From IMG/VR virus record IMGVR_UViG_3300006875_000163, positions 1-24,001 of that record: 24,001 nt of DNA. One strand, 5' to 3'. Below, in pieces: positions 90 to 23,977 of the stretch. Made by a program: the position numbers and the translations under genes. Under the pieces are notes generated by a model. It was not told where the DNA came from, did no database searches, and saw only the letters and a program-made list of their open reading frames with translations. This DNA comes from a virus. How positions within the stretch are numbered: position 1 is the stretch's first letter; the number at the start of each line of letters is the position of its first letter.

Positions 90-140
90 TTTTTGTTTTG
101 TTTAGTTTATTTAATCACCGACACTGACAAATGGGAGGAA

Positions 141-156
141 GCTTTCTGTGGGCCAA
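141..156 (-). promoter_or_regulatory. Candidate sigma-54 (-24/-12) promoter P6
   Basis: Read on the minus strand, TTGGCCCACAGAAAGC has the invariant GG at 154-153 and GC at 142-141, with exactly ten bases between them as sigma-54 requires. It shares the -12 block AAGCT and the upstream AAA with the promoters at 11,189 and 12,102. The predicted start is near 129, 40 nt before the ATG at 89. It sits in one of the few real gaps in the minus-strand block. Confidence 0.6.
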
Positions 157-4758: not shown

Positions 4759-4940
4759 TTACACTCCTTCCATTTGAACTGATTTTTACCCGCGCAATCG
4801 ACCACCCACTCAGCGCGGCCTTTCCTTACGGCTTCTTCGCGCATACTGCTCTTGCCAAGCTGATCGCCCCACAGGATTGCTAAGGACAGAAAACAACCTG
4901 CTACAAGTCCGTACATGCATTGTTCTAAAACTTGGATCAT
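4755..4940 (-). CDS. Small single-pass membrane protein (61 aa)
   Basis: Residues 7-25 (QCMYGLVAGCFLSLAILWG) form one hydrophobic segment. The rest is the soluble EEAVRKGRAEWVVDCAGKNQ, close to a short domain (EAVxxGxAEWVVDxxGxxxFxWK) seen in many small phage membrane proteins. The N-terminus would be short and outside or inside; orientation cannot be fixed. It overlaps the activator ATPase gene above by ATGA. It might be a holin- or spanin-like component for the transglycosylase 1.5 kb downstream, but there is no direct evidence. Confidence 0.65.
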   Translation of the reverse strand: MIQVLEQCMYGLVAGCFLSLAILWGDQLGKSSMREEAVRKGRAEWVVDCAGKNQFKWKECK

Positions 4941-5782
4941 AGCTCACCTTCCTTATCATATTCCGGCAATTCAATCTCTCCTAGCTCTCTCTTTAATAGA
5001 AGATTACGCAACGCCCGAACATTCCCAAAGGAGAATGTCTCGTCGCCGAAGTGTTCCCTTTCCCCCAAAGGCGTCCAGTTTTCCTCGGCGATAATGGCTG
5101 ATGCGACGCATCTGATTTCCTGAACCCCTCTGTCTTTAAGAGAGAATGTCTTCAGACCTAACTCATTGATGCGGAAGTATAGATCCTCTCGGAAGCTTCC
5201 TTCCTTTACCATCTTCAACAGATCTCGATTCGTCGCGAAGACAAAGCGACATTGAATCGGGACTGGATCAACAGCCCCGACGGGCAATACGGTTTTATCC
5301 TGCAAGACTCTTAAGAGCTTAGCTTGATGCGCCAGCGGCAACTCGCCTATCTCGTCGAGGAAAGCAGTGCCCTTGCCGACTGCTCTTAGGAAGCCAACGT
5401 CGCCTCTTGATTTAGCACCCGTAAAGGCGCCGGGCATGTAGCCGAAGAGTTCTGATTGAAAGAGTGTGTCAGTCAAGCCAGCCATGTTCATAGCCTTGAG
5501 AGGCTTTCTCTTATGCGCTAGGATCTTTGCAACTAACTCCTTGCCTGTGCCGCTCGGACCTTCGATAAGGACGTTGTATTTCTGCAAGCTTTCTTCGGCG
5601 TAGGTTATTGCCGCCGTGAGCATCCTCTTGGTGAGAGGATCTTGCGTGGCATAGCATGATGCTATTGACTGAATCGAGTTCTCCTTCAGCGCATCGCCTG
5701 TGATCTTCAACACATCCTTGCGGATGTTATCGAGGAAGCTGTCGGCCGCGGCTGTGTTAAGGACGTTTGCGTGGATGTTCAT
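4937..5782 (-). CDS. Sigma-54 activator AAA+ ATPase (enhancer-binding protein core, no HTH)
   Basis: The 281-aa protein is essentially one sigma-54 interaction domain. It has Walker A GPSGTGKE (75-82), the GAFTGA loop intact at 118-123 inside ELFGYMPGAFTGAKSRG, Walker B GTAFLDEIGE (138-147), sensor I ATNRDL (183-188), arginine finger FREDLYFRIN (about 197-206) and sensor II GNVRALRN (253-260). GAFTGA is the element that contacts region I of sigma-54 and is diagnostic of this family (PspF, NtrC, NifA). There is no N-terminal receiver/GAF domain, and the Fis-type HTH that normally follows sensor II is missing. It must therefore act without its own DNA contact or through a partner. It is in the same operon as the rpoN-like gene. 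Confidence 0.93.
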   Translation of the reverse strand: MNIHANVLNTAAADSFLDNIRKDVLKITGDALKENSIQSIASCYATQDPLTKRMLTAAITYAEESLQKYNVLIEGPSGTGKELVAKILAHKRKPLKAMNMAGLTDTLFQSELFGYMPGAFTGAKSRGDVGFLRAVGKGTAFLDEIGELPLAHQAKLLRVLQDKTVLPVGAVDPVPIQCRFVFATNRDLLKMVKEGSFREDLYFRINELGLKTFSLKDRGVQEIRCVASAIIAEENWTPLGEREHFGDETFSFGNVRALRNLLLKRELGEIELPEYDKEGEL

Positions 5783-5958
5783 TGTGTCTTGGATTTATTT
5801 TTACGTTTGCTATATATCGAAGGCCCGGGATCTCTTAGCTTATACCGCATGATAGCTTTGCGTGCTTCTGCCAGTTCTTCCTTTGTTAGATACTCTTCTT
5901 CAATAGATCCGTGAGTATACTTTGGAACATATTGGTCACCATGTTTACGCTTGCTCAT
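5779..5958 (-). CDS. Small basic hypothetical protein (59 aa)
   Basis: An ATG at 5958 lies inside the end of the HTH gene and the stop TGA at 5779 overlaps the ATPase start (ATGA), so all three genes are translationally chained. The product begins MSKRKHGDQYVPKYTHGSIE, contains a helix EEEYLTKEELAEARKAIMRY, and ends in a strongly basic tail (SKRKNKSKTQ). The 'THGSIEEEYLTKEEL' portion resembles a small phage motif, but I cannot name a family. Being between a DNA-binding protein and the sigma-54 activator makes it a possible adaptor; this is inference only. Confidence 0.65.
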   Translation of the reverse strand: MSKRKHGDQYVPKYTHGSIEEEYLTKEELAEARKAIMRYKLRDPGPSIYSKRKNKSKTQ

Positions 5959-6253
5959 ATTGTTTTAGTTTATTCTTTAGTTGTTGAATCTCAATTTCTA
6001 GGTTAAAGATTCTTGAAGCCATAGCATTCTTCAGATTAGTCAACTCAAAGATCATCTTGTCATAGTGTTCCTTGTGATAAGGAATCTTGCTGATGTTTGT
6101 TACTGTGCCCCGGGAGATTCCGAAGTGATCTCCTACTTGCACGCGCGTTAGGTGTGGGTTTGCGTGGATATATTTGCGGATATGTAACTTCTCCTCAAGT
6201 GTGAGATAGTAGTTCTTGCGGGTGATATGTGTGGCTTTACGTTGATGTGACAT
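5945..6253 (-). CDS. HTH plus coiled-coil DNA-binding protein (102 aa)
   Basis: Residues 36-54 (TRVQVGDHFGISRGTVTNI) form a clear helix-turn-helix of the HTH_23/homeodomain-like type, preceded by the helix LTLEEKLHIRKYIHANPH. Residues 66-100 form a coiled coil (heptads in IFNLEIEIQQLKNKLKQYE), suggesting a dimer. It has one of the few good Shine-Dalgarno sequences of the minus block (AGGAAAGGA, about 7 nt before ATG), so it may be made at a higher level than its neighbours. Its close coupling with the HTH-less sigma-54 activator makes it the best candidate for the missing DNA-binding part. A replication or packaging role (small-terminase-like HTH) is an alternative. Confidence 0.75.
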   Translation of the reverse strand: MSHQRKATHITRKNYYLTLEEKLHIRKYIHANPHLTRVQVGDHFGISRGTVTNISKIPYHKEHYDKMIFELTNLKNAMASRIFNLEIEIQQLKNKLKQYEQA

Positions 6254-6256
6254 ATG

Positions 6257-6535
6257 TTAATCCTTTCCTGCAGGTGGTGTATACTTGAATGCTTCTTGTC
6301 GTTTGATTTCTTTCTGATATGATTCGAATGTGTCTGATAGTTGTTTTATCTTTGCGTGCAAGGTGTCGAGTTCATGGCGCTGACAGAAGTTTGATTGTAG
6401 GAAATCTGTCTTCTCGTCATTAACCCATCGCGATTCACAGCACCATTGGATATGCTTGTATTGATTTATTATTTCATTACTACCACAGCCCGGGCACTTC
6501 GGGCCGCCTGTTGGTTTCCATTCATACGCGCTCAT
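6257..6535 (-). CDS. Zinc-ribbon hypothetical protein (92 aa)
   Basis: The N-terminal 40 residues hold CPGCGSNEI (C14, C17) and WCCES (C32, C33), spaced like a small zinc ribbon. A further CQRH pair follows at 51-54. The remainder is a coiled-coil segment (DTLHAKIKQLSDTFESYQKE). Such proteins often bind nucleic acid or scaffold protein contacts in phage early operons. The start overlaps the preceding gene by 14 nt and the stop is 3 nt before the next start. Confidence 0.7.
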   Translation of the reverse strand: MSAYEWKPTGGPKCPGCGSNEIINQYKHIQWCCESRWVNDEKTDFLQSNFCQRHELDTLHAKIKQLSDTFESYQKEIKRQEAFKYTPPAGKD

Positions 6536-6746
6536 TTTGTTTTTGTTTTTGTTTCTCTATCCTTTGTTCCCGCAACTCGATCACAGCTTCAGCCTGTTCG
6601 AATGCGATCTCTGCATTACGCTGTAAGGTTTCCTTGTTGTTTGGATTAGCCAACAGCCCAGTGAGAGCTTGGCCCACCAGATAGTCCAACAAATACATGC
6701 TGAGATATCCGGGATTCCGCACGCGGAAAGGATCTTTGTCGGACAT
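6522..6746 (-). CDS. Small hypothetical protein (74 aa)
   Basis: The product has a compact helical N-terminal part (NPGYLSMYLLDYLVGQALTG) and a long charged helix ending in a lysine/glutamine run (EKQKQKQNERV). No known domain is recognised. The start follows an A-rich leader. The gene lies 48 bp beyond the helicase, upstream of it in sequence order but downstream in transcription, and overlaps the zinc-ribbon gene. Confidence 0.65.
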   Translation of the reverse strand: MSDKDPFRVRNPGYLSMYLLDYLVGQALTGLLANPNNKETLQRNAEIAFEQAEAVIELREQRIEKQKQKQNERV

Positions 6747-6794
6747 TTTTGTTGCTTTGTTGGAGAGTTATGATATGATTTAGATATGGTTAAG

Positions 6795-8966
6795 TTAATT
6801 GACAGACTCTACAAGTTCCTCCTCATCATCTTCTTCCTCCTCAACCTCGACAACGCCAGAGGACTCGGCGGCTGTGAGATCTTCGGCGGTAAGTCTCACG
6901 ACCGCCGCCTTATCCTTGAGTGCCTTCTCAAGTTCGCCCGCCAGATCGACGTTCGATGAGCCGATTGCGTCCACGGATTTGAGTTTCCTCGCCAGCTTAG
7001 GAGCCATGTGATCACTGAGGATTGTGCCCTCGGGAACATAGATCTCTTGCAGTGTGTCGGTGAGGGTTGTGATACGGACACAACGACCGAGAGCTTGAGC
7101 AAACTCTTCGGCCCAATAGGTCATCGTTGATGCGACTTTGCGTGGTCGTGTGTGCTGGTAGCGATGATCCAGTGAGATACCCGTACCTCCTGAGGAGAGA
7201 GTGTAGATACAGAACTCAGTCTCACCATTGAGGAACGCTTGCACGTTCTCGTGTCGTTCCTTTTGGTTTTGATTGTGGAGCTTCATCTCTCTGAGCTTCT
7301 CATTCCGTGCAGCGAATGCATCCTTCGTCATCTCTCGGAAGATTCTCTCGCTTGTGTATTTGATGCCTTTGTGGAATGCGCGGAACTCTTCCTTGCTGAT
7401 GCCGATGTCATCAGACTTAGGCTTTCTTGCTTCATGAGGATTGTCAAGAATCCACATGCCCATCTTCGCAGCGATCTCTGCCGCGCGCGTCTCGGGCAGA
7501 AGCTCCTCGGGCTTGATCTCTTTGTTGCCGCCCCAGATTAAGGAGATCTTGTCTTTAGTTAGACCCTTAGACTTGAAGTATTCAGACTCACAGAGCTTCA
7601 TGACTAGCTCCTTGAGAGTCTCGGTGAAGCGGATCGCTATGACTGGCGCATAGCCTTGTTGGTGAGCGGCGATCGCATCAGCGACCCATGTGTCTACAGT
7701 AGCAAGCTCGGCCGCTCGGGCCATGACCATGAAGGCGACCATGACTTGACCTTGTGGATCTATGCTGCGACCTGTTCTTTCAATGGCCTCAAGATAATTC
7801 TTCATCGCATTCTTGAGCATGTTCTTGTTGGCCTCGTCGGTGATCTCAAAGAGCTTGACTTTGTTGAGGGCCTTCACCTTTTGAGGATCGCCCGGCGGCT
7901 TAACAAGGCGATCGCCCAGCGCACCGGCCCAGCGTTCGAGTGCTGCTGCATTCGCCGAGCGGGGATCTGCGCCGAGGGTAAGAGTGCGAGCGAACTCTGG
8001 GAATGTCTCTCGCGTGAGAGGTCTTGCTCCATACGGCAAGCGCATGGCAAGAGTCATGAACATCGTATCCCATACAGTCACGGCGGGCGTGGCTGAAGTG
8101 AAGACCCACTTGATAGATGGGAATTGAAGGAAGGCTTCTAAGTATTTAGTGCGCTTAGACTTCTCCTTCTTGATCTCCTGACACTCGTCGAGAATGATAA
8201 GCTTGGGCGCTGCTTGCTCTGGCAGGTTAAAGCGGATGACCTTTGTAGCTTGGCCGAAGATCTCCACTGTTTCCTCCTTAAAGAAGTTCTTGTTCTTCGT
8301 GGAGAAGACTTCGTTGTATGACCACACGTCGACGGCCAGCCCGACGCTTTCGAGACCTAGCTTTTTGAGAGTGTCCCTAAAATCCAGCACCACGGACTTC
8401 TTGGTGATGATTAGGATCGGTGGGAATAATCCTAAGAAGTTACAGAACTTTTGCGGGTCATGTTTCTGTAGCCACAGTGCGAGACCGGCGGCGATCCAGC
8501 TCTTACCTTTGCCGGTGCCGAGTGGGACAAGTGCGCCGTTGAGATTGTCTTTGTACAACACATCGAGCAGCGCGGCGATAGCTTTCTTCTGTTGGGGTTT
8601 GAAGTCGAGACCGTTGGGGAGTTTGATGTCGATTGTGGAGTAAGTTCTTTTTTCTCGAAGAGCAGCTTCCTCTGCGAGGCGCAATGCTTCCTTCTGTTGG
8701 CGCAACGGAGCTTGATTAACCCAGCCTTGAAGAAATCCCAACAACGTAGCGTAGTCTAGTTTGATGGATGGAACGACAGCAAGACTAAGCTCACGCTGCA
8801 AGAAGTCCCACTCATAAGGCTCCTTGCGATAGAGATCTGTCAGCTTCTTTGCTTGCGCTCGCGCGGTGGTGAGAGCGGTCTGTTGAAGACGATCTTCTTT
8901 GCTGGTATAGGTTGGTTCTGCTGGCGCGGCTTTCTTAACGCCAGATGGGGTTGAAAAGATATTCAT
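6795..8966 (-). CDS. Superfamily 2 DNA helicase/translocase (SNF2/DEAD-like), 723 aa
   Basis: Motif I is PLGTGKGKS (148-156), motif II DECQ (259-262, LIILDECQEI), motif III TSATP (289-293). In the C-terminal lobe there is LSSGGTGISL and motif VI QALGRCVRI (624-632). This is a full two-lobe SF2 ATPase. The N-terminal 120 residues form an extra charged domain, and the last 15 residues are almost all acidic (EVEEEEDDEEELVE). That tail could mimic DNA or bind a basic partner. The phage replication/recombination setting suggests a role in replication initiation, fork remodelling or recombination. No DNA polymerase or primase is in the window. Confidence 0.88.
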   Translation of the reverse strand: MNIFSTPSGVKKAAPAEPTYTSKEDRLQQTALTTARAQAKKLTDLYRKEPYEWDFLQRELSLAVVPSIKLDYATLLGFLQGWVNQAPLRQQKEALRLAEEAALREKRTYSTIDIKLPNGLDFKPQQKKAIAALLDVLYKDNLNGALVPLGTGKGKSWIAAGLALWLQKHDPQKFCNFLGLFPPILIITKKSVVLDFRDTLKKLGLESVGLAVDVWSYNEVFSTKNKNFFKEETVEIFGQATKVIRFNLPEQAAPKLIILDECQEIKKEKSKRTKYLEAFLQFPSIKWVFTSATPAVTVWDTMFMTLAMRLPYGARPLTRETFPEFARTLTLGADPRSANAAALERWAGALGDRLVKPPGDPQKVKALNKVKLFEITDEANKNMLKNAMKNYLEAIERTGRSIDPQGQVMVAFMVMARAAELATVDTWVADAIAAHQQGYAPVIAIRFTETLKELVMKLCESEYFKSKGLTKDKISLIWGGNKEIKPEELLPETRAAEIAAKMGMWILDNPHEARKPKSDDIGISKEEFRAFHKGIKYTSERIFREMTKDAFAARNEKLREMKLHNQNQKERHENVQAFLNGETEFCIYTLSSGGTGISLDHRYQHTRPRKVASTMTYWAEEFAQALGRCVRITTLTDTLQEIYVPEGTILSDHMAPKLARKLKSVDAIGSSNVDLAGELEKALKDKAAVVRLTAEDLTAAESSGVVEVEEEEDDEEELVESVN

Positions 8967-8970
8967 AATA

Positions 8971-9276
8971 TTATAGGTCCATCAACTTCGCGATCACTTC
9001 CTCAGCGTTCTTGAAACCGTAGGCTTGAGGCGTTCTTGAGATCAGAGAGATGTACTCGCCAAAGACAATACTCTCTGCGGTTGGTTTGTCAAGCATGGCG
9101 AAGGATTTATTCAGGGCATCGCGCCTATTGAGGAGAGGCGTAAGCTTTTTCTGCACCGCAAGCATCTCATCCTCCAGCCGTTGGCGTAAGACTACATTCT
9201 TGGTAGTAGCCTTGTCCATCTTGGCTTTGAGGCGTGCTGCTTCCTTCTGACATTTCTTCTGTAGGTTTTTGTTCAT
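8971..9276 (-). CDS. Coiled-coil hypothetical protein (101 aa)
   Basis: The N-terminal half is a lysine/glutamate/alanine coiled coil (KKCQKEAARLKAKMDKATTK). A smaller helical domain follows (SIVFGEYISLISRTPQAYGF; NAEEVIAKLM). The start at 9276 overlaps the end of the preceding gene by 110 nt, an unusual length for this compact operon. Internal ATGs at 9219 and 9165 would shorten the overlap. The frame ends 5 nt before the helicase ATG. Function unknown. Confidence 0.65.
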   Translation of the reverse strand: MNKNLQKKCQKEAARLKAKMDKATTKNVVLRQRLEDEMLAVQKKLTPLLNRRDALNKSFAMLDKPTAESIVFGEYISLISRTPQAYGFKNAEEVIAKLMDL

Positions 9277-9880
9277 CTTGTTGTGGTTGATTTTCTTGGT
9301 TAATTTTTTCTAACAGACCGCGAGTGTCTACAATACGGAGAACTTCTTCGATGGGAAAGTAACAGTTGATGTTGTTGAACGCACCTTTTAGGGCATCATT
9401 GAGTTGTCTACTCTTATTCAAATAAACTTCCTCGCCCTGCGATGTGATCGCGGCGGCGACTTCGAATGCTTTCTGTTTGGTGAATAGCTTCGCCTTCGAC
9501 AAGGCGTCGGCGATCATTTCGATCCTGAGTTCCTCCGCTTTTTTGTGGAGGAAGGATATGTCAGAGGCAAGGTGGTTTGCTCGTAGTGTTCTCCGTCTTT
9601 CGTCGGAAAGGTTCCACTCGGTCGCGTCCCAGATGACGCTGTAGGATAATCCGTCCTCGTCGACTCTCTGAATATAGATATGCTCACCCGCGCAGTGAGC
9701 TTTGATCCAGTCCGCTGTTTCATTTGAAGCAACAATCGCATGGGCAAGATTATTCCCTGGAGTTCTTCGGATGAAGTGACCTCGTTCTGTATCGACATGA
9801 CAAGAACAGGCTGGGAAAAGCAATCCCCAGAGGGATTCGCTTGTGATGATTTCTTTTTCGTTTTCATTTTGAGGAAGCAT
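9167..9880 (-). CDS. Hypothetical protein following rpoN (237 aa)
   Basis: The start lies inside the end of the rpoN-like gene (17-nt overlap), so the two are probably translated together. The protein has a mixed N-terminal domain with two cysteines and histidine (FPACSCHVD; AHCAGEHIYI), a helical middle (ISFLHKKAEELRIEMIADAL; LFTKQKAFEVAAAITSQ) and a low-complexity Q/E/S/T tail from about residue 196. That tail lies in the 110-nt overlap with the next gene. Close linkage to sigma-54 makes it a candidate modulator (anti-sigma or adaptor), but no such family is recognised. Confidence 0.7.
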   Translation of the reverse strand: MLPQNENEKEIITSESLWGLLFPACSCHVDTERGHFIRRTPGNNLAHAIVASNETADWIKAHCAGEHIYIQRVDEDGLSYSVIWDATEWNLSDERRRTLRANHLASDISFLHKKAEELRIEMIADALSKAKLFTKQKAFEVAAAITSQGEEVYLNKSRQLNDALKGAFNNINCYFPIEEVLRIVDTRGLLEKINQENQPQQDEQKPTEEMSEGSSTPQSQDGQGYYQECSLTPTAGG

Positions 9881-11153
9881 AGACTTTACGGAGATGCGAG
9901 GGTTGAATGCCTAGTTCGGCTCTGTACTTGGCGATTGTGCGGCGAGCGATTGTGTTCTTGAGAAGAACAACGATGTCCTCGTCGCTAAGAGGTCTTGACT
10001 TGTCCTCGCGTGAGATGATCTCTGCGATTTGGTTTTTTATAGACAGGTTACTCTGCATGGTATTTTCATTGTGGTTTATGATTGCGCTGGTGAAGAAGAA
10101 ACGGAGTTCGTATGTCCCGTGCGGCGTGCTGATGTATTTGTTATGGACTGCGCGTGAGACTGTGGTCTCATGGATCTCGCACACGGTGGCGATCTGCGCC
10201 ATGATGAGCGGCTTGAGATCTTTGATATTCCCGGTCTTGAAGAACTCAGATTGATAATCTACAATAGCCTTCGTGACACTGAAGAGTGTCGACTGGCGCT
10301 GAGTGATTGAGCGAATCAGAAACTTACCTTGCTTCACGCGATCTCGGATGTATTCTCTGTCCGCCGCAGAGAGCTTGTCGAGATAGTTGAGGTAAGTCTG
10401 ATTGATCTTGTAGATTGGAAGACGCTCGGACGGGATCGTAATGTTGAAGTCTTTGTCGAGAAAGATCTCTGCGTCTTTGGGCGTGTGCGTTGAAGAGGAG
10501 AATTCGGAGGCTGGGTTGTAGTTTAGTTTGCTTAGAGATTTATAGAGATTCTCTATGGTCGTAAAGGTTTCGTTGTATTTTTTGCTTAAGAGAGGAATCT
10601 GTCTTCGTGTAAATAGATCTTCGTCTTGTTGGAGGATCTTGTATGCTAGTGAGTCTTCTGGAAGTTGGAGACAGAGACAATCAGCCAGACCAAGTGCGCC
10701 TAAGCCTTTGGGTTCGAGAGTTCTTATGAATCTAAGTGCATCCCGTTGCGGTGTGCTTAGTGCATCAAGATCGCCCGTGTAAAATCCCCGCTCGTCGAGC
10801 AGATGTATAATGCTCGTATCGTGTTGCGCTATAAGAAGTTCTCTTAACAAGTATTCTTCAAGAGTCTCATCTCTTGATGGATTATTCTCAAGAGGATATT
10901 CCTCTCGGGCGGGCAGGCTGTAAGAACTAGTCCACTGCATGTCTTGCGGCAACTCTGCTTTGTCATTCCGAAAAAGAATTTCTTCTTCGGGCGTGTCTCT
11001 ATCGAGGAGTTCGACACATGGATTATCTCCGACAAAAGACTCCATCAGATTGTGGAGTTCACACAGCGGTGCCTGTAGCAAGGCGAGAGACTGCTGAAGT
11101 TGTGGACTCAGGATAAGACTCTGAGTCTGATTAAGTGCGAGAGAAAACTTCAT
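9864..11153 (-). CDS. rpoN-like: Phage-encoded sigma-54 factor (RpoN-like), 429 aa
   Basis: The N-terminus matches sigma-54 region I: SLALNQTQSLILSPQLQQSL and ALLQAPLCELHN, then DNPCVEL, parallel to the Q-rich region I of bacterial RpoN. The C-terminal half has the conserved core (RSITQRQSTLFSVTKAIVDY, FFKTGNIKDLKPLIMAQIA, HETTVSRAVHNKYISTPHG, YELRFFF). The RpoN box is ARRTIAKYRA at 403-412, against the consensus ARRTVAKYRE. The length is slightly below the usual 450-500 because acidic region II is short. Region I is kept, so it should still need an ATP-driven activator, which the same operon supplies at 4,937-5,782. It is the first gene of the long minus operon and has a -24/-12 promoter of its own, 24 nt of predicted leader upstream. 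This implies positive autoregulation. Confidence 0.95.
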   Translation of the reverse strand: MKFSLALNQTQSLILSPQLQQSLALLQAPLCELHNLMESFVGDNPCVELLDRDTPEEEILFRNDKAELPQDMQWTSSYSLPAREEYPLENNPSRDETLEEYLLRELLIAQHDTSIIHLLDERGFYTGDLDALSTPQRDALRFIRTLEPKGLGALGLADCLCLQLPEDSLAYKILQQDEDLFTRRQIPLLSKKYNETFTTIENLYKSLSKLNYNPASEFSSSTHTPKDAEIFLDKDFNITIPSERLPIYKINQTYLNYLDKLSAADREYIRDRVKQGKFLIRSITQRQSTLFSVTKAIVDYQSEFFKTGNIKDLKPLIMAQIATVCEIHETTVSRAVHNKYISTPHGTYELRFFFTSAIINHNENTMQSNLSIKNQIAEIISREDKSRPLSDEDIVVLLKNTIARRTIAKYRAELGIQPSHLRKVYASSK

Positions 11154-11188
11154 TTTGGCTAGTGGTGGTTGTTAGCCTATGCAAAGGA

Positions 11189-11204
11189 GCTTCTAGTGTG
11201 CCAA
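11189..11204 (-). promoter_or_regulatory. Candidate sigma-54 promoter P1 (rpoN operon)
   Basis: On the minus strand TTGGCACACTAGAAGC has GG at 11202-11201 and GC at 11190-11189, exact sigma-54 spacing. The -24 half (TTGGCAC) matches the bacterial consensus. The predicted start near 11177 leaves a 24-nt leader before the rpoN ATG at 11153. The -24 element is the right arm of a perfect dyad (GTGCCAA, 3 nt, TTGGCAC), and a third half-site lies at 11223-11228. It shares 18 of 22 positions with P2. Confidence 0.75.
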
Positions 11205-11228
11205 GTTTTGGCACCTGTGAGATGCCAA
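11199..11228 (-). repeat. Alternating TGCCAA/TTGGCA half-sites over P1
   Basis: Three half-sites occur within 30 bp: TGCCAA at 11199-11204, TTGGCA at 11208-11213 and TGCCAA at 11223-11228 (plus-strand orientation), giving two overlapping dyads. The proximal one contains the -24 box of P1. This could be an operator for a regulator that competes with sigma-54, or extra sigma-54 docking sites. A dyad of the same kind overlaps P2 and P5. Confidence 0.5.
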
Positions 11229-11253
11229 GGCGTGAGACACTCTGAAAATCCAA

Positions 11254-11293
11254 CAAAAAAGCCTCTGTGAGATTGCTCCCACAGAGGCTTTGT
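11254..11293 (-). terminator. Rho-independent terminator of the 215-aa gene
   Basis: A perfect 11-bp stem (AAGCCTCTGTG at 11259-11269 with its complement at 11280-11290, 10-nt loop) is followed on the minus strand by a run of six U (11255-11260, partly in the stem). It lies 52 bp past the stop of the gene at 11,345 and just before promoter P1, so it separates that gene from the rpoN operon. Confidence 0.85.
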
Positions 11294-11344: not shown

Positions 11345-11992
11345 TTAGACCTTCGCGGCCTTCTTCGCCTCGCGCTTGGCCTTCGCGGCCGAGAGTTCGT
11401 TGGCCTTGGCGAGAAGCTGCGCCAGAGAGGCGATGAGGTTAGACTGCTTGGCGATCGCAGCGTCCTTGTCGCTGACGTTGAGAGAACGGGCGATATCGTC
11501 AGACCACTCGCCAGCGAGGGCAAACACAATCGAGCCGATCTCAGAGCGAATGCTTTCGATCTTCTTGAGGACAGACTTCTCAGTCTCACGATCCGCAGAG
11601 ACGCCATAGATGAAGGCGGCGAAGTAGTCCGGAGTGTTGCCCTTGCTGAGATAGGCTTCAGAAGCGTCCTCAGAGATATCCAGCAAGTGCTCGCTGACCA
11701 GATCGCTCAGCGCATTAGAGATGCGCTTGGTCTCGGTGACAGAGCCGTCTTCGTTCTTCACCTTCGTGACGTGCTCGGTCGGGATCTCAGCGAGAGCTTC
11801 GCCGCGCTTGACCCAATACTGCAGGTCAGAAACCGCCAAGACAGGCTTCTGGAAGGAGACGATGCGCTCGGGAGACTTTGCAGTCTTGCGGACATGACGC
11901 TCCGCGGTGGTGAAGATAGGATTGCCGTCGGTGTCGCTCTGGAAGACAGAGCCAGCAAACGAGGCAACGAGTTCGAGGTTCTTAGTGCTCAT
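11345..11992 (-). CDS. Monocistronic 215-aa protein with basic tail, unknown
   Basis: No family was recognised. The N-terminal part (NLELVASFAGSVFQSDTDGN; FTTAERHVRKTAKSPE) looks folded with beta strands. The middle is acidic and helical (SNALSDLVSEHLLDISEDAS), and the last 25 residues are an Ala/Lys-rich helix (AKAKREAKKAAKV) like histone- or SSB-linked tails, suggesting DNA or RNA binding. The gene stands alone: promoter P2 with a 98-nt leader in front, a strong terminator behind, and an A-rich leader without Shine-Dalgarno. Codons end in G/C more than its neighbours. Together these imply high, separately controlled expression, as for a phage DNA-binding or nucleoid-type protein. Confidence 0.8.
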   Translation of the reverse strand: MSTKNLELVASFAGSVFQSDTDGNPIFTTAERHVRKTAKSPERIVSFQKPVLAVSDLQYWVKRGEALAEIPTEHVTKVKNEDGSVTETKRISNALSDLVSEHLLDISEDASEAYLSKGNTPDYFAAFIYGVSADRETEKSVLKKIESIRSEIGSIVFALAGEWSDDIARSLNVSDKDAAIAKQSNLIASLAQLLAKANELSAAKAKREAKKAAKV

Positions 11993-12101
11993 GATGTTTT
12001 ATTTTTGTTTCTAACTTTGTTGGTAGTTTGTTTTGGGATGTTTACGGTCGCGCGACCTTAGACATTTCGCTCATCACCAACGGGACTTGCAAAGCGATAG
12101 A

Positions 12102-12117
12102 GCTTCTTGAATGCCAA
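12102..12117 (-). promoter_or_regulatory. Candidate sigma-54 promoter P2 (215-aa gene)
   Basis: Minus-strand TTGGCATTCAAGAAGC has GG at 12115-12114 and GC at 12103-12102 with exact spacing. The predicted start is near 12090, 98 nt before the ATG at 11992. The block AAAACTTGGCA, four variable bases, AGAAGCT is shared with P1. The -24 box is one arm of a dyad (GCCAAG, 6 nt, CTTGGC). It lies directly after the terminator at 12133-12184. Confidence 0.72.
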
Positions 12118-15378: not shown

Positions 15379-15849
15379 AAAACTCTTGACAAGCCTTTTT
15401 AGGTAACAAAAAGCCTCATTTTTAAGTAAAAAACGAGAATACTGAAGAAAAACTCAAACAAAGCAAGCTTTTTCAGAAACTATTAGAAACGCTAATTCTT
15501 CGAGAAAGTCACTAAAGGCTTTTTAATGATTTTTTCTTTAACATTACAAAAGTAAACAACAAAAAACACTTGTAATTCTGAAATAAAGCAAGCTTTTTCT
15601 TTAGGTAATTCTTTAGGCAAAAGAGAAAAAGTAAATAATACGCTTATCAGGTTTTTCTGAGGGATCGTTTTTTTTTTATTATTTTATTTAACATATTTAA
15701 CACTCCAGTCTCACAAAAATACGTTATCTACTACAAAAAGACCCTAAGCGCAAAATCCCAATTTATCAATAAGCATATTTATCTGACAAATAAAGGATTT
15801 AACACTAACAAAATCGCTCTTTTAACACTCTTTTATCACAAAACGCTAT
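15379..15849. other. AT-rich non-coding tract with 15-bp direct repeat
   Basis: About 470 bp with no convincing gene and many A and T runs, including ten T at 15668-15677. AAAGCAAGCTTTTTC occurs twice (15460-15474 and 15585-15599), each copy a small self-complementary element. TTTAACACT occurs three times. Placed next to iterons, this could be the DNA-unwinding part of an origin, or the AT-rich upstream region that helps DNA bend between an enhancer and promoter P3. Confidence 0.5.
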
Positions 15850-15984
15850 TTACAAAGAGCTTCAATGCATAGAGCTTCTATGCATAACCCTTCGATCCCT
15901 TGCGTTTCTATGCATAGAACCTCAATGCATAGAGCCTCAATGCATCTTTGTTCTACCCATAGCACTCCAACGCATCCCGACGCG
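15850..15984. repeat. Nine 15-bp tandem repeat units (enhancer candidate or short repeat peptide)
   Basis: Consensus ATGCATAGAGCYTCW, in strict 15-bp register from 15850. Units at 15865, 15910 and 15925 are nearly identical; those at 15895, 15955 and 15970 are decayed. The array lies 120-255 bp before the predicted start of P3, where activator sites of sigma-54 promoters usually are. On the minus strand the same DNA reads as a pentapeptide repeat LCIEA (frame 15846-16034). Several base changes fall at third codon positions (ATT/ATA/ATC, GAA/GAG), so a coding role cannot be dismissed. Confidence 0.7.
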
Positions 15985-16076: not shown

Positions 16077-16092
16077 TTGGCCTCTTTGGTGC
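16077..16092 (+). promoter_or_regulatory. Candidate sigma-54 promoter P3 (terminase/late block)
   Basis: TTGGCCTCTTTGGTGC has GG at 16079-16080 and GC at 16091-16092, exact spacing. The predicted start is 16104, only 3 nt before the ATG at 16107, so the message would be nearly leaderless. The match beyond the invariant bases is weaker than in P1/P2 (no A at the fifth position, GTGCTT at -12). The 15-bp array lies upstream. Confidence 0.55.
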
Positions 16093-16106
16093 TTTATGCG
16101 TTCTAT

Positions 16107-21889: not shown

Positions 21890-21905
21890 CTGGCATATCG
21901 TTAGC
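21890..21905 (+). promoter_or_regulatory. Candidate sigma-54 promoter P4 (major capsid)
   Basis: CTGGCATATCGTTAGC has GG at 21892-21893 and GC at 21904-21905, exact spacing, followed by AAAA. It opens 20 bp after the scaffold stop and predicts a start near 21917, giving a 146-nt leader before the capsid ATG. A separate strong promoter for the capsid gene matches the need for several hundred copies per particle. Confidence 0.62.
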
Positions 21906-21916
21906 AAAACATCGAA

Positions 21917-22062
21917 TGTCAGACCGAATCTCCCAGAGAGATTCCGCTAGAAGCTCTGCTATCTAAGCGGTTACGGCTAGGACAGACCTAACCATTAACC
22001 GTTTGTGATGTCAGGGCTTTTTTGTTGTCCTGACGGATCAAACATCAAACGAAAGTATAACA
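21917..22062 (+). promoter_or_regulatory. Structured 146-nt leader of the capsid gene
   Basis: The predicted leader folds into stems at 21927-21932/21938-21943, 21944-21948/21966-21970, 21968-21973/21996-22001 (with 21978-21981/21987-21990 inside, alternative to the former) and 22010-22015/22029-22034, the last with a U-rich loop. Two of them are mutually exclusive. The structure could protect the message or control translation. The U-run lies in a loop and not after a stem, so it does not look like a simple terminator. Confidence 0.5.
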
Positions 22063-23924: not shown

Positions 23925-23961
23925 TTCTTTAAGGAGAATAAAGAGCAACCCAATCTATGAT

Positions 23962-23977
23962 TGGCAACCTGACAGCT
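23962..23977 (+). promoter_or_regulatory. Candidate sigma-54 promoter P5 (gene at right edge)
   Basis: TTGGCAACCTGACAGC has GG at 23964-23965 and GC at 23976-23977, exact spacing, with AGCTA at -12. The predicted start is 23989, 3 nt before the ATG at 23992, the same distance as for P3. The -24 box is one arm of the dyad CCAATC, 3 nt, GATTGG. It directly follows a terminator. Confidence 0.62.

Follow-up and report, generated by a model that had tools for sequence, protein, structure and literature searches.

The window analysed here, which is the whole 24,001-base IMG/VR record IMGVR_UViG_3300006875_000163, carries on its minus strand an rpoN-like gene for sigma-54 and a gene for an AAA+ ATPase of the sigma-54 activator type (Table 1). 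The two products probably constitute a phage-borne, ATP-gated switch in which phage sigma-54 and its activator, acting on the core RNA polymerase of the host, drive phage genes. In the proposed mechanism, phage sigma-54 would bind the host core enzyme, and the holoenzyme would be directed to phage promoters with the motif TTGGCAY-N6-AGCT at -24/-12, where it would wait as a closed complex. A ring of the ATPase, which lacks a helix-turn-helix (HTH) domain and bears a GAFTGA loop, would then hydrolyse ATP and remodel the closed complex, and transcription would begin. Binding to the core enzyme, dependence on the activator, use of the promoters, the timing and the host are inferred. If the proposal is true, the phage would seize the host polymerase by a different route, through a sigma-54 and an activator of its own, with promoters bound yet silent until the ATPase fires, which would make sharp timing possible.

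Judged by its domains, the predicted 429-residue product of rpoN is a full-length sigma-54. The initial annotation of this DNA had read region I, a conserved core and an RpoN box (residues 403-412) in the gene, and all of them are borne out by Pfam, by the NCBIfam equivalog TIGR02395 and by alignment with the E. coli protein. The Pfam families tested (PF00309, PF04963 and PF04552) gave matches above cut-off to AID (43.7 bits, residues 4-49), CBD (72.8 bits, residues 89-254) and DBD (165.5 bits, residues 267-423), and the TIGR02395 score of 290.2 exceeds the cut-off of 277.35. The alignment with E. coli sigma-54 (9mse_M, E-value 3e-42) is end to end, pairing residues 1-423 with residues 1-474, and the RpoN box reads ARRTIAKYRA. 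Region I, the HTH and the RpoN box are almost invariant among 14 phage sigma-54s. The ratio of nonsynonymous to synonymous substitution rates (dN/dS) for rpoN is 0.04-0.06 in the pairs for which it could be computed, a range that does not include the more distant, probably saturated pairs. The retention of region I suggests that phage sigma-54 depends on an activator.

In a tree of 74 sequences that set them against bacterial RpoN, the 14 phage proteins form a single, exclusive and deep clade (100/100, stem length 2.4 changes per site). This clade falls next to or inside Verrucomicrobiota (79/86) and outside Planctomycetota and Pseudomonadota (100/99); the best bit scores of phage sigma-54 in these phyla are 229, 180 and 171, respectively. 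PHROGs holds no family that matches it, and a search of genome contigs for prophages or hosts, made with the sigma-54 alignment, recovered bacterial rpoN alone, at 27-34% identity, and a sigma-54 of the phage clade in none of the bacterial genomes. Phage sigma-54 and bacterial RpoN (TIGR02395, nearest in Verrucomicrobiota) have in common the three domains, the RpoN box and, with Verrucomicrobiota, the HTH motif HETTVSRA, and the candidate sites of the phage factor have the -24/-12 GG-N10-GC geometry of bacterial ones. By contrast, the phage proteins are phage-encoded, shorter (429-431 residues against about 450-550) and about 32-36% identical to the nearest bacterial ones, and their candidate sites prefer A, not T, at -14.

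The companion ATPase is, by its motifs, an HTH-less sigma-54 activator and not a classical enhancer-binding protein. It matches Sigma54_activat (PF00158) with 167.2 bits against a cut-off of 20.2, so that both proteins of the pair exceed their cut-offs in hidden Markov model searches, and the closest solved structures in a comparison with the PDB are NtrC-type activators. The GAFTGA loop is intact, as had been claimed, and all AAA+ motifs are present: Walker A (GPSGTGKE), GAFTGA (residues 118-123), Walker B (FLDEIGE), sensor I (ATNR), FREDLYFR and GNVR. The dN/dS of the gene is about 0.034. About 60 residues precede the AAA+ core, and Pfam matched no regulatory domain (receiver, GAF or PAS) there; the protein ends about 25 residues past GNVRAL, and neither a receiver nor an HTH was found by Pfam at E-values up to 0.1. 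Both marks of the three-domain enhancer-binding protein, the N-terminal regulatory domain and the C-terminal HTH, are therefore lacking, a correction to the earlier reading of the protein. Compared with NtrC, FleQ, PspF, ZraR and RtcR, the phage activator has the same core, with Walker A and B, GAFTGA, sensor and arginine motifs, but has no receiver or HTH and a short C-terminal part, and it is set apart by the 100/100 branch that divides phage from cellular-type activators in a tree for which the cellular ones were sampled. AlphaFold2, run on the ATPase alignment, returned a mean predicted local distance difference test (pLDDT) score of 48.5, and the model was not used.

The contig that carries the pair is a member of an uncultured bacteriophage group. 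The window is 100% identical to part of contig G001 (49,266 bp), and 21 IMG/VR contigs encode the sigma-54 of the window clade, at 73-100% identity. The ATPase is present in 21/21 of them, the pair stands in the same phage gene order throughout, and rpoN is intact in every contig that holds the whole gene. Because 21 contigs keep both genes and dN/dS is low, chance is excluded for the pair. One relative, G004, assembled to 49,727 bp with direct terminal repeats of 127 bp and is thus taken to be a complete genome. Its predicted products include a family A DNA polymerase, a ligase and an exonuclease, a helicase, primase-like DUF3987 and Sak4-like proteins, an S74 tail fibre and a terminase-like protein. 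The remaining genes of the window are phage-type (terminase-like, portal/capsid-type and replication genes), and terminase, portal and capsid follow one another in the phage order of Caudoviricetes, where the assignment of the latter two is based solely on size, order and conservation. The terminase large subunit is closest to those of Akkermansia phages, at about 30% identity, with other phages also matched. The annotated genes of this phage include none recognised as coding for an RNA polymerase, and scanning the window for Rfam families and tRNAs gave no hits.

A bacterial chromosome wrongly joined to phage DNA, which the initial annotation had considered, is ruled out by the gene order that 21 contigs share, by the terminal repeats of G004 and by the exclusive, deep sigma-54 clade. 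More generally, an artefact of joining or a recent, functionless transfer has next to no probability. Such artefacts do occur, as sigma-54 matches in a public phage collection look like bacterial contamination, but the common neighbourhood, the 49.7 kb assembly with its repeats and a dN/dS of about 0.05 speak against one here, as does the fact that this sigma-54 is in none of the scanned bacterial genomes, where the best match has 34% identity.

Among contigs with related activators, the closest that hold sufficient flanking sequence, G030 and G032, have the gene order of the window clade and no sigma-54: at the position of rpoN, the gene for a 215-residue protein is followed by that for a 237-residue protein, with about 100 bp between them in G030. 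G030 measures 49,848 bp and, given its terminal repeats, is probably complete.

Promoter use by phage sigma-54 is suggested by conserved GG-N10-GC sites, which it would recognise (Table 1; conservation was scored with the motif YTGGC-N9-GC upstream of genes across relatives). Two sites of the window, upstream of rpoN and of the 215-residue protein gene, have TTGGCAY-N3-AGAAGCTC in common, and the GG-N10-GC spacing is exact at the conserved -24/-12 sites of the window clade. When spacing was varied across the gene families of the group, the correct value gave the sole clear peak (hit fraction of 0.102, against 0.003-0.049 elsewhere), and permuted motifs yielded 0-1 conserved families against 3 for the real one. 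A matrix trained without the relatives lacking sigma-54 had as its hits 1, 2 and 4 in G030 the sites before the 172-residue protein, capsid and 215-residue protein genes. The genes downstream of TTGGCCCACAGAAAGCTT extend beyond the window and are known from the annotation of relatives. Terminators lie directly upstream of three of these candidate promoters and would keep transcription units apart. The rpoN promoter probably also drives the helicase and activator genes, which would create positive feedback, and sites at the rpoN, 215-residue protein, DNA polymerase/ligase, capsid and tail-fibre genes point to middle and late expression as the most likely task of the pair. Matches to the strict bacterial consensus TGGCAC-N5-TTGC are fewer in the window than in shuffled sequence; this deficit was set aside as an argument against the promoters, since the phage motif deviates at -14.

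The placement of these sites also bears on the suggestion that phage sigma-54 chiefly redirects host genes, for instance those for nitrogen, motility or surface functions, and not phage genes. Such roles generally belong to bacterial sigma-54 regulons, and phage sigma-54 is Verrucomicrobiota-like in the tree; nevertheless, conserved matching promoters precede genes of the phage itself (those for capsid, tail fibre and replication, and rpoN), and their preference at -14 is unlike that of Verrucomicrobiota genomes, which makes this explanation highly improbable. In the curated promoters of the window clade, about 89% have A at -14. Verrucomicrobiota genomes are instead enriched for T (213 hits of TTGCT against 43 in the control; 51 of WAGCT against 119), and T is also favoured by distant phages that have only the activator.

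Alternatively, the activator might work mainly with host sigma-54, phage sigma-54 being an extra copy that boosts the level when the host has little. Most activator-bearing phages are without sigma-54 and have canonical, host-like promoters, the promoter positions of G030 and G032 are those of the window clade, and the kept region I implies that phage and host sigma-54 should be interchangeable at the activator. Against this stand the A at -14 in the window clade, where Verrucomicrobiota genomes are enriched for T, and the very long stem branch of phage sigma-54, which fits specialisation. An auxiliary role is thus unlikely, though less so than the redirection of host genes. The ATP-gated switch acting on phage genes, as initially proposed, is supported by gene context, by the sigma-54 clade and by conserved promoters, but the activator is not tied to sigma-54, being found in many phages without it.

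Several observations weigh against the switch. The promoters of G030 and G032, which have no sigma-54, also carry A at -14, so that the change in the promoters and possession of the factor do not go strictly together; sigma-54 may have been lost there, the promoter shift may have come first, or the hosts may tolerate A. Sigma-70-like sites are no commoner than in shuffled sequence, which leaves the first expression of rpoN unexplained. As the predicted ATPase has no DNA-binding domain, its recruitment to promoters is likewise unexplained; it may act from solution or via a neighbouring HTH protein of 102 residues. The host is probably a member of Verrucomicrobiota, but the argument for it is indirect. 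Finally, a gain of sigma-54 in the window clade and an earlier gain followed by loss in G030 and G032 may both fit the data.

The activator is most likely the older and more widespread component, to judge from its distribution, with sigma-54 acquired later by the window clade. In a wider scan, sigma-54 was found in 0/47 further contigs with more distant activators, many of these contigs being fragments. Most of the activators in them have 240-310 residues and no HTH; a few (such as L168, L184, L185, L189 and L190) resemble full-length cellular activators. Many of the contigs show the activator gene in synteny with relatives of the window phage's genes for helicase, exonuclease, Sak4, polymerase and primase. 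In distant activator-only phages, 53 canonical -24/-12 sites have the correct spacing, and every other spacing yields 0-1; near-identical contigs inflate the count of 53, and a slightly broader pattern gives 37 distinct sites, of which 34 have T at -14. Many distant phage contigs among L161-L206 hold a short HTH-less activator as a syntenic core gene, with canonical promoters and no sigma-54, and these contigs apparently represent a broad phage class that uses host sigma-54, for which the literature searched gave no description. An ancestor would have had the activator and used host sigma-54 before a Verrucomicrobiota-like sigma-54 was gained. Somewhat better than even is the probability of the fuller scenario, in which a large, old phage assemblage with private, DNA-binding-free activators as core genes channels much of its gene expression through host sigma-54 at canonical -24/-12 promoters, and a single clade took a Verrucomicrobiota-like sigma-54, shifted -14 from T to A and became a largely separate system. 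Comparing the three natural states (an activator with canonical promoters, one with shifted promoters and one accompanied by its own sigma-54) allows a direct test of how sigma-54 promoter specificity evolved. Phage activators without an HTH may in addition serve as compact tools for sigma-54 biochemistry.

Phage sigma factors such as T4 gp55 and SPO1 gp28 belong to the sigma-70 family. To our knowledge, the known phage sigma factors are of this type and need no ATP-hydrolysing sigma-54 activator. Members of the family, which include the factors of phiEco32 and 7-11 (PMC8948821), likewise send the host core polymerase to phage genes but are unrelated in protein family to phage sigma-54. In a literature search that left subscription papers and preprints mostly outside, no phage sigma-54 was found with backing beyond a weak remote match: gp2 of Pectobacterium phage Q19 was named a 'sigma-54 factor' on a single HHpred match with an E-value of 0.67 (PMC7693777). 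It shares only the name with phage sigma-54 as described here, which exceeds curated cut-offs. The same search gave no description of takeover by sigma-54 and activator for any phage. Matches to either protein in INPHARED were judged from record names and annotations to be bacterial contamination; the exception is MT121960.1, a gut phage record of 41 kb whose activator has no HTH. OR847420, OR848206, CAKLQF020000038 and several other INPHARED records carry rpoN or two-component regulators of the ordinary bacterial kind and appear to be contaminated with host DNA.

Within the window, consecutive minus-strand genes lead from rpoN to the ATPase gene. Because this run is unbroken and contains a single, weak terminator-like site, it is plausible that the two belong to one operon, as initially annotated. 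The 102-residue HTH protein gene is found in rpoN-bearing contigs, with two matches each in G016, G018 and G020, and was not found in G030 or G032; its product might, speculatively, be a DNA-binding partner of the activator.

Table 1. Predicted features of the window, by position and strand
Feature	Position	Strand	Remarks
Sigma-54 activator AAA+ ATPase	4937..5782	-	281 residues; GAFTGA intact, no receiver, no HTH; Pfam, PDB, tree
102-residue HTH protein (CENP-B_N/transposase-type HTH)	5945..6253	-	just upstream of ATPase
DEAD/ResIII-type helicase	6795..8966	-	same gene run; syntenic with ATPase in distant phages
237-residue protein, function unassigned	9167..9880	-	start overlaps rpoN end; directly after 215-residue protein gene where rpoN is absent
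rpoN-like sigma-54	9864..11153	-	429 residues; region I, core-binding domain, HTH, RpoN box; Pfam, NCBIfam, PDB match, tree
rpoN promoter TTGGCACACTAGAAGCTC (GG-N10-GC)	11187..11204	-	51 nucleotides 5' of ATG; motif in 20/20 contigs
Strong intrinsic terminator	11258..11291	-	between 215-residue protein gene and rpoN promoter; kept in most relatives
215-residue conserved protein, function unassigned	11345..11992	-	own sigma-54-type promoter
215-residue protein gene promoter TTGGCATTCAAGAAGCTC	12100..12117	-	motif in 18/19 contigs, including G030 (no sigma-54)
172-residue protein gene / DNA polymerase-ligase operon promoter TTGGCCCACAGAAAGCTT	139..156	-	motif in most relatives, including G030 and G032
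Weaker candidate promoter TTGGCCTCTTTGGTGCT	16077..16093	+	precedes gene ahead of terminase large-subunit-like gene; 8/12 contigs
Capsid-type gene promoter CTGGCATATCGTTAGCA	21890..21906	+	11/11 contigs, including G030
S74 tail-fibre gene promoter TTGGCAACCTGACAGCT	23961..23977	+	9/9 contigs; gene begins at the window's end

Some further structures surround these sites. The -24 element of the rpoN promoter lies inside a palindrome, TGCCAA-N3-TTGGCA (11190-11230, minus strand), which is kept in nearly all relatives, often with an extra TTGGCAT upstream, and which is a possible operator or autoregulatory site. In most relatives, a hairpin ends just 5' of the rpoN start codon (11154-11190 of the window, minus strand); it is absent in G016 and G018. 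Its arms differ among the relatives, with three sequence pairs that each stay complementary (GGCTA/TAGCC, GTCTG/CAGAC and GGATAAA/TTTATCC), and it could possibly exert translational control. Between the capsid promoter and the ATG there is a leader of about 155 nucleotides (21890-22060), and an inverted repeat, TCTGGCAT.../...ATGTCAGA, spans the promoter.

Elsewhere in the window, an array of 15-bp repeats with ATGCAT (15838-15966) lies within an AT-rich stretch of about 1 kb that separates two gene blocks; it may be a replication origin or a control region. In G004, DNA polymerase A appears to be divided between two genes (476 and 330 residues; L069:6388-9827) that flank one for an ATP-dependent DNA ligase, and both polymerase parts map as separate, adjacent stretches in distant relatives too. 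The same genome encodes a 1,798-residue protein with a polyvalent ADP-ribosyltransferase domain (L069:11788-17184, minus strand), which might be injected and act on host proteins.

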